Positions 13,723 through 47,335 of a DNA stretch of 64,000 nucleotides are shown in pieces. The notes below the pieces were generated by a model. It saw nothing but the letters and a program-made list of their open reading frames with translations. It searched no databases and was not told the origin of the DNA. Source of the DNA: Roseivirga thermotolerans (GTDB lineage: Bacteria > Bacteroidota > Bacteroidia > Cytophagales > Cyclobacteriaceae). Within the stretch, counting starts at the first letter, position 1. Each line of letters opens with the position of its first letter. The stretch is taken from positions 496,001 to 560,000 of the forward strand of contig NZ_BNAG01000004.1 of assembly GCF_014653175.1 (NCBI RefSeq), written 5' to 3'. The position numbers and the translations under genes are program-made.

Positions 13723-13874
13723 GTTTGAGTTTCTGTGCTTCTAATCCTTATAACTCTCTTTTCAAAAAGGTAAATTACTAGCAGATAAACATCTATGGAA
13801 TTGATCGGAATGATGTTTGCAAGGATAATCCTCCTTGGCGAAGGAGGTTGGGAGGATTGACCTAAAAGTAGTCT

Positions 13875-14240
13875 CTAATCCCCCAGCCCCCTTTTCAAAA
13901 AGGGGGAGTGCTTGTGTTAGAATCGTGTATTTCATCTTTAGCGGCTATTGCGATTCACCATGTTTTTATAATGTCTTTAAATTATGCACTCCCGTTTTTC
14001 CCTTTGACGAAGTCTGCCTGCAAAGGCAAGGGGTGGGGGGATTGGCTTTGAAATAGTTCATTAGGATCTAATCCCCCAGCCCCCTTTTCAAAAAGGGGGA
14101 GTGCTTGTGTTAGAATCGTGTATTTCATCTTTAGCGGCTATTGCGGTTCACCATGTTTTTATAATGTCTTTAAGTTATGTACTCCCGTTTTTCCCTATGG
14201 CGAAGCCTGCCAGCAAAGGCAGGGGGTTAGGGGGATTGGC
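13875..14240. repeat. Two ~190-bp repeats (subtype 1) with CCCCCTTTT/AAAAGGGGG hairpins
   Basis: Copies begin at 13875 and 14068 with CTAATCCCCCAGCCCCCTTT; the second ends at about 14240, right at the stop of the DUF559 gene. Each contains the short palindrome CCCCCTTTTCAAAAAGGGGG and a shared interior (GTGTTAGAATCGTG...), and closes with GGGGGATTGGCT. The two copies are about 95% alike. Upstream, 13723-13874 carries a fragment of the closing arm (GGCGAAGGAGGTTGGGAGG) and nothing else that I can name. Confidence 0.85.
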
Positions 14241-14241
14241 T

Positions 14242-14613: not shown

Positions 14614-14629
14614 AATGTGTTTATCATCT

Positions 14630-15050
14630 CTAATCCCCCTGGCCCCCTTTTCAAAAAGGGGGAGGGTTTGTGCTAATTCTAACTGACTACTTCTAAAAAT
14701 ACATTGCTCTTAAGTGTCTATTCCTGATGCCACTTACTCTGACACCTCCTTTTCCCCCTTGGCGAAGGGGGTTAGGGGGATTGGCTTTGAAATAGTCTCA
14801 TTAAGCTCTAATCCCCCAAGCCCCCTTTTCAAAAAGGGGGAGGGTTTGTACTAAATTTTAACTGACTACTTCTAAAAATACATTGCTCTTAAGTGTCTAT
14901 TCATGATGCCGCTTACTCTCACACCTCCTTTTCCCCCTTGGCGAAGGGGGGTAGGGGGATTGGCTTTTGAAATAGTTCATTAGGATCTAATCCCCATGCC
15001 TCCCTTTTCAAAAAAGGGGGAGTGCTTGTGCTAGAATCGTGTATTTCATC
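14630..15050. repeat. Two ~179-bp repeats (subtype 2) plus one partial subtype-1 copy
   Basis: Copies begin at 14630 and 14808 and share an interior (TGACTACTTCTAAAAATACA, CTCTTAAGTGTCTATTC) different from the copies on the other side of the DUF559 gene. Their outer arms are the same: CTAATCCCC..CCCTTTTCAAAAAGGGGGAG at the start and CCCCCTTGGCGAAGGGGG at the end. A truncated copy at 14987-15050 returns to the subtype-1 interior (GTGCTAGAATCGTGTATTTC). Confidence 0.85.
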
Positions 15051-43181: not shown

Positions 43182-45668
43182 TCACTGATTCCTCCTCTTA
43201 ACTCCCCGAATAGCCGGTTCATTCCACGGATCATCAGGCCAGACATGTTTGGGATAGCGTCTTTTCAGTTCCTTTCTCACTTCGAAATAGGCGTCTGACC
43301 AAAAGCTTTTCAGGTCGGAGGTAATTTGAACGGGTTTGAAACCGGGAGAGAGCAGGTGCATCAGCACGCTTTGTTTTCCGGCATTGATCTTAGGGGTTTC
43401 GGCCATACCAAAGACTTCCTGTATGCGGACGGCTAAAATAGGGGCTTCAGCATTGTCTCGATAAGCGAGGCGAATTTGTGAACCACTCGGCACTTCAATT
43501 TTTTCCGGGGCCAGGTCATTCAGTTTGCTTTGCTGGTCAAAACTCAAACTGTGGTGTAAAATGTCTTTAAGCTTAAGCTTTTTGAGGTCTTCCGGCTTGC
43601 GGATGTTATTGAGATAAGGGGCCAGCCAGTCACCACAGGTTTGGAGTAGGGAAGAAGTACTTACTTCCGGCCATAGTTCTTCAGGGTTCCATTTCCTGAG
43701 CGATAACACACGGCTTTGCCATTGGTTTACCTCCTCATTAAAGTCGAGCAAACGTTCGCCTTCTTTCTTTATGGCATCTACTATGGCATTCACTAAATGG
43801 GCTGGATCCGGATCGGGCAAGGGAGTGCTTCTTAGCACAATGCTACCGATGCACAGGTTTTTGGAAGCAATAAGCCCTCCATCTTCTGTATCCCAGGTAA
43901 TTACTTCTTTCTCTTTTACTAAAGGAGCCAGATCTCTGGGGTTGAGAGGGGAGGCCATATGAATTTTACCCATACCGTCTCGAGCATCGATATGGCAAAC
44001 GGCCAACCAAGGCTCAGCAGCCAAATCATCTCGATGACCGGCCATGGCATAGCGACCGTTAGACAATTGGAATTGGGCATTATTACCAGGACGAGCACAG
44101 GCAATGCGTTCCGGATAGGCGTGGGTGAGCAAAACACCAGTTTCATATGGATCGACAAAGTCGTTTTCTGCCTCAATCTGAAACAGTTTGCGGTATTGCT
44201 CGGCTATTTTTTCTATCCGTTGCAGCTTTTTACCATCGCGATTTTCCCTTCGGTGAGTTCTCAAGGCTTCTATGCGCGTATTAATGTCTATTCCTGCCTC
44301 TTTGCCGAGCGGATCGCGCTCTTCAAGCAAGGCTGCAATATCTGTAGCCAAAGCCAATTGATCGTGCTCCTCTGCCAACAAGAGCATATGAGCTATTCGC
44401 GGATGGCAAGGTAGCCTGAGCATCTTTTTGCCATGCTCTGTTATCTTTCCATTTTCCAAAGCCTCCAGTTGGTGTAAAAGGTCTCTGGCTTGCGCTAATG
44501 GGCCGGCAGGAGGGGGCGTAAGCCATGTCATTTGTTGTGGGTCTATGATACCCCATTGGGCCATATCGAGTACTAGTGAAGCCAGGTCGGCTTCCATAAT
44601 CTCCGGTACAATGTGCTCAGTCATTCTTTGGTGCGTAACTGGGCTCCACATGCGATAGCAATGGCCTGCACTTAAACGCCCTGCCCGGCCGGCTCGCTGA
44701 TCTGCTGAATCTCTGGAAATACGGACTGTTTCTAAACGAGACAGGCCGGAGTTCGGGTCGAACTTAGAAGTGCGTCCAAAACCACTATCAATAACCACTT
44801 TAATCCCTTCAATGGTCAAGCTGGTTTCGGCAATATTGGTAGCCAGAACTACTTTTCGTTTACCGCTACGATCGGGCATAATGGCGGCCTGTTGCTTATG
44901 AGGCGGTAAACTTCCATAGAGCTGATGAATGGCCATTCCTTTTAAGCTTCCTCTCAACAGGTCGGCCGTTTTCTGAATTTCTCTTTGACCGGGAAGAAAC
45001 ACCAGAATATCTCCATCGTGAAGCCTGGCCGCTTTGCTGATGGTCTTGGAGATTAGCTCAGGAATTAAAAATTCATCGATATCTCCTTCATAAATTATTT
45101 CTACGGGGTATTGCCGGCCTTCACTGACTACCGCAGGAGCTTTTAAGAGGCTGGTCAACTGCGGCATATTTAAGGTAGCAGACATAATCATAATGCGCAG
45201 GTCGGGCCGAAGCACTTGTTGAGCTTCTCTACAAAGTGCCAGAGCTACATCTGCATGGATGCTACGCTCATGAAATTCATCGAAAATGACCATTCCAATA
45301 CCGGAAAGCTCATTGTCTGACTGAATCATACGGGTGAGTATGCCCTCAGTAACTACTTCAATCTTGGTTTTATCTGAAACCCGATTGTCAAACCGAATAC
45401 GGTAGCCAACAGTCTCGCCAACCTTTTCCTCAAGGAAGTAAGCCATGCGCTCCGCAATGGTACGAGCAGCCAGCCTGCGTGGTTCCAGCATGATGATCTT
45501 CTGACCCTTGAGCCAAGGCTCATCCATCAAAGTAAGTGGTAAAAGCGTACTTTTTCCTGCGCCCGGAGGTGCATTAACGATTAGCGTATTCTTTTCAGCA
45601 AGGTGCTTTCTGGTATCGGGAACAACTTCCTTTACAGGGAGGTCTATATGTTGGTATTGAAAACTCAT
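43182..45668 (-). CDS. hrpB: ATP-dependent RNA helicase HrpB
   Basis: The 828-residue DEAH-type helicase has Walker A APPGAGKST (33-41), EPRRLAART motif Ia, DEFHERS (130-136, an F-for-A variant of DEAH that is usual in HrpB), SATLN motif III and a second RecA domain with TNIAETSLTIEG and QRAGRAGR. The HA2/OB-fold region and HrpB-specific C-terminus (about 680-828, SVLMHLLSPGFKPVQITSDL) complete it. HrpB is a cytoplasmic 3'-5' RNA helicase of uncertain physiological target. Length matches the family. A short spacer leads into the tandem repeat array above 45.8 kb, from which it is divergently read. Confidence 0.95.
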   Translation of the reverse strand: MSFQYQHIDLPVKEVVPDTRKHLAEKNTLIVNAPPGAGKSTLLPLTLMDEPWLKGQKIIMLEPRRLAARTIAERMAYFLEEKVGETVGYRIRFDNRVSDKTKIEVVTEGILTRMIQSDNELSGIGMVIFDEFHERSIHADVALALCREAQQVLRPDLRIMIMSATLNMPQLTSLLKAPAVVSEGRQYPVEIIYEGDIDEFLIPELISKTISKAARLHDGDILVFLPGQREIQKTADLLRGSLKGMAIHQLYGSLPPHKQQAAIMPDRSGKRKVVLATNIAETSLTIEGIKVVIDSGFGRTSKFDPNSGLSRLETVRISRDSADQRAGRAGRLSAGHCYRMWSPVTHQRMTEHIVPEIMEADLASLVLDMAQWGIIDPQQMTWLTPPPAGPLAQARDLLHQLEALENGKITEHGKKMLRLPCHPRIAHMLLLAEEHDQLALATDIAALLEERDPLGKEAGIDINTRIEALRTHRRENRDGKKLQRIEKIAEQYRKLFQIEAENDFVDPYETGVLLTHAYPERIACARPGNNAQFQLSNGRYAMAGHRDDLAAEPWLAVCHIDARDGMGKIHMASPLNPRDLAPLVKEKEVITWDTEDGGLIASKNLCIGSIVLRSTPLPDPDPAHLVNAIVDAIKKEGERLLDFNEEVNQWQSRVLSLRKWNPEELWPEVSTSSLLQTCGDWLAPYLNNIRKPEDLKKLKLKDILHHSLSFDQQSKLNDLAPEKIEVPSGSQIRLAYRDNAEAPILAVRIQEVFGMAETPKINAGKQSVLMHLLSPGFKPVQITSDLKSFWSDAYFEVRKELKRRYPKHVWPDDPWNEPAIRGVKRRNQ

Positions 45669-45804
45669 AGGGTAATTGAGCTGCGAAGGTAAGGACTAAA
45701 GTATTGCGATGTGAGATATACTTAGTGCGAAATGGGTTTTAGAACTGAAGAGACTATGGTCTACTCGGGGTTGAGAGGAATAAAATAATTACTCTGAACA
45801 AAAA

Positions 45805-46632
45805 TAATTCAGACTTGAAGTCTTTTGGGTCGCATTTGTTAGGTCCGGTATACTAGCCAAAAACTGTGTCCTCACAGCGTCTTTTAACAGCCATTTGTGA
45901 AGACACACTTAGAGGCAAGGTTTAGATATATACTGCTTGCGACTTAAGTAAGTAACCCTAAAAAGTAATTCGGACTTGAAGTCTTTTGGGTCGCATTTGT
46001 TATATCCGGTATACTAGCCACAAGCTGTGTCCTCACAGCGTCTTTTAGCAGCCATTTGTGAAGACACAAATGGAGGCAAGGTTCAGAAATATACTGCTTG
46101 CGACTTAAGTAAGTAACCCTAAAAAATAATTCAGACTTGAAGTCTTTTAGGTCGCATTTGTTAGGTCCAGTATACTAGCCAAAAACTGTGTCCTCACAGC
46201 GTCTTTTAACAGCCATTTGTGAAGACACACTTAGAGGCAAGGTTTAGAAATATACTGCTTGCGACTTAAGTAAGTAACCCTAAAAAATAATTCAGACATG
46301 AAGTCTTTTGGGTCGCATTTGTTATATCCGGTATACTAGCCACAAGCTGTGTCCTCACAGCGTCTTTTAACAGCCATTTGTGAGGACACAAATGGAGGCA
46401 AGGTTCAGAAATATACTTCTTGCGACTTAAGTAAGTAACCCTAAAAAATAATTCAGACTTGAAGTCTTTTGGGTCGCATTTGTTAGGTCCGGTATACTAG
46501 CCACAAGCTGTGTCTTCACAGCGTCTTTTAACAGCCATTTGTGAAGACACAAATGGAGGCAAGGTTCAGAAATATACTTCTTGCGACTTAAGTAAGTAAC
46601 CCTAAAAAATAATTCGGACTTGAAGTCTTTGG
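45805..46632. repeat. 161-bp tandem repeat array, five full units plus a partial sixth
   Basis: Units begin at 45805, 45966, 46127, 46288 and 46449, each exactly 161 bp; a sixth starts at 46610 and loses similarity after ~22 bases. Nested inverted repeats recur in every unit: outer GTCGCA/TGCGAC (first unit 45829-45834 and 45938-45943) and inner TGTGTCCTCACA/TGTGAAGACACA (45865-45876 and 45896-45907). Unit 4 (C with G) and unit 5 (T with A) carry matched changes in the two arms, which restores perfect pairing. Units 1 and 3 share one variant interior (CCAAAAACTG, CACTTAGAGG) and 2, 4 and 5 another (CCACAAGCTG, CAAATGGAGG). No ORF of note spans it. It sits between hrpB and a secreted-protein gene. 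Confidence 0.95.
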
Positions 46633-46678: not shown

Positions 46679-47335
46679 ATGACAAAATTTAAAGCATTAA
46701 TCACACTCGTTATTTTCATTTTTATTATCAATGTTAGTTACGCTCAAAATAGGTTATATGAACACCCAAATTTCCCTCAGATAGCTGCTAAACATCAGAT
46801 GATAGCTATTCTCCCTTTTAAGGCAACTGTCAACTTAAGGCCAAAGCAGATGGAGCAAATGACCTCCGAACAACTGGCGGATATGGCAAAACTTGAGGGT
46901 TATAATATTCAAGAATCAATGTATTCATGGTTTTTAACTAGAAAAGGAAGGGGCGAAATGGTAGTAAATGTTCAAAATACCGTAGAAACTAATGCAATCC
47001 TTGAAAAAAATGGTTTTGAGTACAACTCGATATCTAAATATACACCAAAGGAATTAGCAGGATTACTAGGAGTTGATGCGGTTATTATGGGTAGCTTTGA
47101 AACGTCAAAGCCAATGTCTGAAGGAGCTTCAATTGCGCTTGGTTTGCTCATTGGCTTTTGGGGTAGCACAGACAAAGCAGTATTGAATATGTTTATCTAC
47201 AATGGGGAAGATGGAGAAACCTTGTTCAACTACAATAGAGCAGTCAATGGCTCATTAGGCACTAATACCGATAATCTTATCAATAGATTAATGAGAAAGT
47301 CTTCAAGAAAGATCGCATACACTAATAAAAAATAG
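46679..47335 (+). CDS. Secreted protein, possibly CsgG/GNA1162-like
   Basis: The 218-residue product begins MTKFKALITLVIFIFIINVS and has a signal peptide ending near YAQ, so it is exported. The part IAILPFKATVNLRP, then GVDAVIMGSFETSKPM and a Gly-rich hydrophobic stretch (ASIALGLLIGFWG) with a final amphipathic region, recalls the nucleoside-binding-like fold of CsgG/GNA1162 lipoproteins, but no Cys lipobox is present. I choose the ATG at 46679 because the earlier in-frame start at 46640 adds 13 residues without signal-peptide character. The gene starts 47 bp after the last traces of the 161-bp array, whose final partial unit borders its promoter. Confidence 0.65.
   Translation: MTKFKALITLVIFIFIINVSYAQNRLYEHPNFPQIAAKHQMIAILPFKATVNLRPKQMEQMTSEQLADMAKLEGYNIQESMYSWFLTRKGRGEMVVNVQNTVETNAILEKNGFEYNSISKYTPKELAGLLGVDAVIMGSFETSKPMSEGASIALGLLIGFWGSTDKAVLNMFIYNGEDGETLFNYNRAVNGSLGTNTDNLINRLMRKSSRKIAYTNKK

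Follow-up and report, generated by a model that had tools for sequence, protein, structure and literature searches.

Probable origin of a 161-bp tandem array of Roseivirga thermotolerans from an expanded IS1595-type MITE that carries a REPIN-like core

Transposable elements with short terminal repeats and small intergenic hairpins provide the closest described counterparts of the array presented here. A target duplication of 8 bp is given for the IS1016 group of the IS1595 family and for Merlin in the part of PMC10045372 that was available. In the BrickBuilt MITE of Porphyromonas gingivalis, as described in the accessible portion of PMC4596501, 23-nt repeats are found inside the element. The accessible sections of PMC6006769 describe TnpA-Y1 subclass 2.6, which is mostly present in Bacteroidetes, as having atypical flanking structures that lack a GT[AG]G foot and are weaker. 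In the same sections the region contacting GTAG is not conserved in this subclass, and its REP-like structures are reported to have been found by manual inspection.

The array lies in a window of 64,000 nucleotides, the whole stretch of DNA that was analysed, from contig NZ_BNAG01000004.1 of R. thermotolerans (assembly GCF_014653175.1, positions 496,001 to 560,000). It is an ordinary, known kind of repeat expansion, and very probably resulted from recombinational tandem expansion of a MITE with IS1595-type ends and a REPIN-like core. The part of interest is the hairpin family of the order to which this core belongs, whose members share an apex and have varying but complementary stems, and which is perhaps a REP family read by its loop.

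The tandem array and the dispersed MITE family

Tandem Repeats Finder places the array at 45800-46630 with a period of 161 bp, 5.2 copies, 93% matches and no indels; it is the sole array of that period in the program's output for the window. Unit comparison gives the same picture, and both agree with the sequence-only reading, which had described five 161-bp units and a truncated sixth. Units 1 to 5 span 45800..45960, 45961..46121, 46122..46282, 46283..46443 and 46444..46604 on the + strand, all of exactly the same length, while the sixth copy is a 26-bp start (46605-46630, 25 of 26 positions matching) followed by unrelated sequence. Any two units are identical at 148-158 of 161 positions. The unit types alternate, a feature on which the earlier reading was silent: unit 1 is nearest to unit 3 (158/161) and unit 2 to unit 4 (155/161), and unit 5 is a mosaic of both types at the variable sites. 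The nested inverted repeats that had been pointed out, GTCGCA/TGCGAC outside and TGTGTCYTCACA/TGTGARGACACA inside, are both present, and the absence of coding sequence also stands, no ORF of 80 or more amino acids being found inside the array.

Every unit opens with the 26-mer AAAAATAATTCAGACTTGAAGTCTTT or a near variant, and a copy is present after the last unit too. The first copy of this direct repeat, delimited by unit comparison, is at 45800..45825 (+); the others, with 24-26 of 26 positions matching, start at 45961, 46122, 46283, 46444 and 46605. Its first letters are AAAAATAA, a candidate 8-bp target duplication. The 26-mer leads into the left-truncated body of a MITE (45821..45960 in unit 1, +; repeated at +161, +322, +483 and +644), whose left border can be placed only to within some bases and which overlaps the 26-mer: depending on the aligner the body starts at element position 8 or 10, within the 26-mer, and identity is clear from TCGCATTTG. 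The body carries the right terminal inverted repeat GGTTACTTACTTAAGTCGCA on the - strand at 45938..45957, and again at 46099-46118, 46260-46279, 46421-46440 and 46582-46601. Its centre is formed by hairpin H1, which in unit 2 occupies 46024..46039 (+) with apex GTGTCCTCAC at 46027 (other apices at 45866, 46188, 46349 and 46510), and by its inverted partner H2, at 46052..46073 (+) in the same unit with apex GTGAAGACAC at 46058 (other apices at 45897, 46219, 46380 and 46541).

The array is flanked by two divergent genes. One is hrpB (43182..45668, -), coding the ATP-dependent helicase HrpB, a protein 94% identical to that of Roseivirga spongicola and 75-81% identical to seven other Roseivirga records. 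The other (46679..47335, +) codes a 218-aa protein without a Pfam family over the cut-off; a relative of it is present in four of the 19 genomes of the genus, source genome included, and none was found in the named genomes of the synteny search. The window contains no tRNA or tmRNA. Its segment 40734-42836 (-) codes a 700-aa ATPase-like protein, nearly all of which is covered by a match to the PADLOC candidate defence model PDC-S06 (E 1.6e-285). Two short arrays at 13874-14241 (193 bp x1.9) and 14628-15033 (179 bp x2.3) contain a CCCCCTTTTCAAAAAGGGGG palindrome; they are other palindromic repeats of the source genome, likewise duplicated in tandem.

Each array unit consists of host flank and a copy, truncated at the left, of a dispersed MITE of about 149 bp. 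Full copies of the element, about 149 bp long, have inverted ends TAGGGTTACTYAYTTARRTCGCA, start with TAGGGTTACTYAYTTA and finish with TAACCCTA. The comparison of the unit with other genomes that the sequence-only reading had proposed was carried out with two units against 59 genomes, and disclosed the dispersed copies in the source genome (4.2 Mb in 12 contigs). With 12 of 59 candidates scored, 140 bp of the unit recurred at least 11 more times at 90-94%, spread over six contigs. A sequence model returned at least 95 rows in this genome, corresponding to at least 67 distinct places, and at least 48 matched over 120 bp or more; five of the 67 are the array units and four belong to a second array. 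The 67 places are a lower bound since 150 of 1353 candidates were scored. Among relatives, the model gave five rows in G018 and a single row in G013 and in G016; the 15 remaining genomes of the genus had none.

At dispersed copies the end pattern is found in both orientations, as terminal inverted repeats, while the array keeps the right end only. Target duplications of 8 bp were assessed at the 16 two-ended copies among 20 dispersed aligned ones (L025, L026, L032 and L039 were omitted, their ends being lost or diverged, and copies L273, L275, L276 and L280 stand outside the counts). The two flanks match at 107 of 128 positions, compared with a mean of 54.6 and a maximum of 87 in 2000 shuffled controls. 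Nine of the 16 copies match at seven or more of 8 flank bases (shuffled mean 0.5, maximum 6), and the remaining seven at 4 to 6 of 8. By eye, an exact 8-bp duplication is present at L273 and none at L275. In none of 19 copies tested did an ORF of 120 or more amino acids overlap the copy by more than 30 bp. The element has the properties of a MITE: it has no coding capacity, is multicopy and, in the 19 copies tested for position, is intergenic. Elements of 143-145 bp with similar ends and other interiors occur in G013, G006 and G032 (L110, L112 and L102, respectively), which suggests that the length of the MITE is constrained.

Element ends, mobilisation and formation of the array

The same ends were found in related bacteria. 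In the congener G007 each of the two ends stands at five contig borders, ten in all, and in one case is followed by ATGAAGTTACTAAAA; the interior of this element was not found in its assembly. G185, from another genus, has 31 matches to the ends. Among ten of these that were read, those long enough run on, with small differences, as MKLLKE(L/W)DREAFKTKFGTKASCYEYLANQKWAEGYSCKKC, a sequence with a weak match to the IS1595 zinc ribbon (16.1 bits, cut-off 25.4, E 0.011). In G021 a decayed gene for an IS1595 transposase scores 55.9 bits for PF12762, over the cut-off, and has its stop codon within the right end TAGTGTTACTCATTTAAGTCGC. The left end of this copy is degenerate, and the amino terminus of the transposase, MTLLKFDRNTFDEHFG, is by eye similar to that of G185. 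From these matching ends on IS1595-type elements of relatives, the MITE ends are identified, at the level of sequence, as IS1595-type ends, the fitting IS copies being incomplete or decayed. Among the genomes examined, no autonomous IS1595 element was recovered whole, with both of its ends intact, and the sole congeneric PF12762 element (L143) is without such an end pair.

The presence of an autonomous IS in the source genome was considered and rejected. Among 81 places with the end pattern there is no inverted pair of ends 300-3000 bp apart; two inverted pairs, 3.1 and 4.4 kb apart, are each situated between known short copies. PF12762 has no match in the source genome and is present in 10 of 59 genomes. 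An IS1595-family transposase acting on the ends would presumably be the enzyme that moved the MITE and, since no such transposase was found in the source genome, the MITE copies are probably immobile now.

Formation of the array would have started with insertion of a non-coding element of about 149 bp with IS1595-type ends between hrpB and the next gene, a founding event that may have made an 8-bp duplication of the target AAAAATAA. The letters after the right MITE end are AAAAATAA (for unit 1, AAAAGTAA), and AAAAATAA is also what the left flank of the array leads into; its occurrence at both sides would fit the target duplication of the founding insertion. The MITE minus its left end, together with 26 bp of right-hand flank, would then have been copied in head-to-tail order, through recombination or through slippage during replication; the 26-mer at the start of each unit is presumed to be host flank that was co-duplicated. 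A single unit would have been duplicated first, and duplication of a two-unit block probably came later, as units 1-2 resemble units 3-4. The intact founding copy may have been lost subsequently, for example by recombination between the AAAAATAA repeats, which would leave the left flank that is observed. R. spongicola has, at the same place, a different gene between hrpB and the next shared gene, and the end pattern (up to 3 substitutions) is absent from 11 named loci. The order of events is a reconstruction because no orthologous empty site was found. A satellite-like expansion had been one of the options considered by the sequence-only reading, and it is the one borne out, in the form of a tandem expansion of a MITE plus 26 bp of its flank.

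The hairpin core and its relatives in the order

The centre of the MITE reads GCCACAAGC-TGTGTCCTCACA-GC...GCCATTT-GTGAAGACAC-AAATGG. It consists of two inverted hairpins with apex GTG-TCYT-CAC and can be regarded, with moderate confidence, as a separate module, a REPIN-like core made of an inverted REP pair. Short inverted hairpin pairs in intergenic position, as in REP and REPIN sequences, were indeed found. The core recurs in other tandem clusters. The second array of the source genome (169 bp x3.9; G000:C4:459751-460405, L278:2252-2906) has the same hairpin core with other flanks, which include a CCCTGAACTTGTTTCAGGG palindrome, and is located directly after an ilvA-like gene and before an aspartokinase-like gene (names given by eye). 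A third array of this genome (268 bp x3.8; G000:C1:740833-741864, L322:4834-5865) carries GTG-TCCT-CAC hairpin pairs outside the MITE family, as does a separate pair of copies (L323:8458-8769). In G079, a member of another genus, the core is part of a 103-bp x3.7 array.

When the spacer was left free, the apex pair was present in 11 of 147 genomes of the genus, family and order. The source genome has 31 pairs, G088 and G094 have four each, G044 and G082 two each, and single pairs are found in G012, G018, G034, G068, G079 and G097; a reversed control pattern gave one match, in one genome (G033), among the 147. This search depends on spacing and missed pairs of G018 that flank a RAYT-like gene (gap 47). 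A search with wider spacing in 395 genomes of the phylum, a sample that besides the source includes 13 genomes of the same order with G088 among them, retrieved pairs in the source genome (24) and G088 (14) only, and none in the 381 genomes outside the order. In a literature search for the apex 10-mers the matches listed have unrelated titles.

Stem pairing was analysed in 47 distinct hairpins; 21 loci had been scanned, and 20 of them contributed. Eight of the hairpins are from the source genome outside the MITE family and two from a MITE relative in G018; near-duplicates within a genome were removed only when they agreed at all of 30 bases. Of the 235 pairs at the five stem positions outside the apex, 196 are Watson-Crick, compared with 94 +-7 (maximum 123) when arms were exchanged between hairpins 2000 times. 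Pairing continues at the sixth position in 44 of 47 hairpins, at the seventh in 24 and at the eighth in 3. The loci were found by the apex pattern, so that apex constancy is partly by construction, but the search made no use of the outer stems, whose complementarity is thus an independent sign of hairpin structure. Hairpins with a 4-base loop and a stem of at least 8 around exact apices have the exact apex in 33 of 42 cases, and three of the other nine look by eye like apex variants. The hairpins lie between ORFs of 100 or more amino acids in all 11 stretches read and, in eight of these, within about 150 bp after a stop codon (distances by eye). Near a hairpin pair of G044, a 66-bp x8.3 repeat (L331:2631-3177) is found within a 997-aa ORF that looks leucine-rich by eye.

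A connection with RAYT genes was sought through the Y1-transposase family PF01797, which has 46 matches in nine of the 11 genomes, 30 of them with loci that were scanned. The apex was found at one of these 30 loci, L363 of the congener G018. The 171-aa protein coded there scores 79.5 bits against the NCBIfam REP-associated tyrosine transposase NF047646 (cut-off 80, E 2.3e-22) and just over the cut-off against Pfam Y1_Tnp; its motifs NHFH and YIHHNP are close to, though not identical with, those listed for subclass 2.6 in the consulted part of PMC6006769. Downstream of the gene are two inverted pairs with 9-bp stems, of which the nearer is separated from the stop codon by about 50 bp. On the other side, with another gene in between, a single hairpin lies about 1.3 kb from the start. 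Hairpins of any sequence were also sought at 12 RAYT-like loci, and repeated ones were found at several others, L356 (G088), L367 (G034), L355 (G082) and L368 (G079). They have a similar build and other sequences, for example GTGTCGGGTTCTCAAACCCGACAC, and may represent further REP families within the order. The letters before several hairpins are, by eye, GCC(A) or CCRYGG-like.

One tentative reading of the core is that it derives from a REP family read by its loop, and not by a foot tag, that was captured in an IS1595 MITE and is prone to tandem duplication. As parts of this same tentative reading, a Bacteroidetes-type RAYT would recognise the apex GTG-TCYT-CAC, the outer stem being any sequence that pairs; the substrate of one enzyme would have ridden on the transposon of another; and REP pairs would render their surroundings prone to tandem expansion, as might be illustrated by the three arrays with differing units of a single genome. 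The core may instead, although this is also doubtful, be an independent hairpin that is bound by an unknown host factor and has no relation to REP, its neighbourhood to a RAYT in the congener being coincidental. The occurrence of the apex at a single Y1 locus speaks for such a hairpin, as does the absence of PF01797 matches from the source genome, which has the most pairs and in which a RAYT was accordingly rejected, and from G097, which has several clustered hairpins. Both Y1 loci of G088 are without the apex, and these absences together weaken the RAYT link. The structures of subclass 2.6 are moreover described as weaker than typical REPs in the available text of PMC6006769, while the stems observed here are strong. 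Against a coincidence stands the clustering in G018: a stretch of 2.1 kb around the RAYT-like gene contains four exact apices and one variant, on 9-bp stems, whereas 400 kb sampled from this genome, which holds further apices beyond the sample (e.g. at L300), contained one exact apex with an outer stem of 4 and none with an outer stem of 5 or more. The repeated hairpins of similar build that flank some other RAYT-like genes also argue against independence. Whatever its relation to REP, a hairpin family that combines a shared apex with complementary varying stems provides a defined motif for searches, and a rule of recognition that can be put to the test, where REP-like structures of Bacteroidetes are concerned.

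Apparent covariation, remaining alternatives and comparison with known systems

The sequence-only reading had noted that one inner pair is C:G in unit 4 and T:A in unit 5, and took these matched arm changes as an argument for a selected structure. The letters are as stated, but units 1-3 have C.A at this position, unpaired on the + strand. The alignment of 25 copies (20 dispersed and 5 array units, with three divergent copies, two of L031 and one of L032, and all copies found later omitted) has C.A in 17, C:G in six and T:A in two. As the majority is mismatched, the two paired states look, from the aligned letters, like separate one-sided departures from it. RNAalifold predicts 18 pairs for the 25 copies, none of which has both sides changed. 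Each 12-mer arm is also a small hairpin of its own, GTG-TCYT-CAC or GTG-ARGA-CAC, which had gone unmentioned, and this brings the position in question into a loop, off the long stem, in three of six folded strands (both strands of unit 2 and the + strand of unit 5); the long stem forms in three of six (unit 4 + and both strands of one dispersed copy). Complementary variation of stems occurs in the wider hairpin family at other loci and in other genomes, and is absent from the array. An apparent case of covariation is thus removed, and a palindromic MITE is shown to be able to imitate covariation.

It is accordingly very improbable that the units are structured RNA genes in tandem, or that the array acts in cis as an RNA whose fold is under selection. 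Its intergenic position between divergent genes would suit such RNAs, and units 2, 4 and 5 fold better than shuffled sequences on the + strand (z of -3.8, -3.5 and -3.6, respectively), as does unit 2 on the - strand (z of -2.3). However, an element of palindromic origin is expected to fold well, a dispersed MITE copy reaching z of -6.4 and -7.2 on its two strands, and the folding and covariation check that had been recommended left the case unsupported with no compensatory change in 25 copies. The outer stem of H2 is broken in units 1 and 3, and the array is absent from R. spongicola at the same place. No Rfam family matches in the window at the gathering score (three matches near the array are far below it, with E up to 5), and the proposed tandem small-RNA gene set thus finds no support at the sequence level. 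Least probable of all, and hardly to be expected, is an array that binds proteins of replication, segregation or recombination in the manner of iterons or attachment sites. The exact period, the inverted repeats and a hairpin apex recurring in the order would suit it, but the array unit exists also as single copies on six contigs, 19 of 19 tested being intergenic, and no partition, replication or integrase gene is found among the neighbouring ORFs read (by eye; Pfam for two). The suggestion of protein-binding or recombination sites holds indirectly, in that each unit is the relic of a transposable element with an inverted-repeat end and with inner hairpins similar to RAYT-associated REPs. No result points to a present function of the array, which would probably have none.

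The array is best understood, then, as an expanded MITE, and its components can be compared with those of described systems. It shares with IS1595-family MITEs a non-coding element of about 149 bp, ends as in the IS1595-type elements of relatives, and 8-bp target duplications; it differs by the REPIN-like hairpin pair in the centre, the left truncation and the tandem amplification. BrickBuilt is likewise a Bacteroidetes MITE associated with tandem repetition, but there, according to the accessible portion of PMC4596501, 23-nt repeats are found within the MITE, while here the repeated unit is the MITE itself.

With REP, BIME and REPIN sequences and their RAYTs, the hairpin family has in common short inverted hairpin pairs that are intergenic in the loci read and are present several times in some genomes, with a RAYT-like gene adjoining in one genome. 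It departs from them in that the apex GTG-TCYT-CAC is common, partly by construction of the search, and the stem sequence varies, and in that the cognate gene is found in one genome only. The strong stems also set it apart from subclass 2.6, whose stems are weak in the description available from PMC6006769. A REPIN-like core in an IS1595 MITE that was amplified in tandem would be a mobile repeat carried by another. The organisation is that of known reiterated hairpin dimers with flanking DNA, in units of 103, 161, 169 and 268 bp, with the difference that the flanking DNA is here a MITE of another transposon family.
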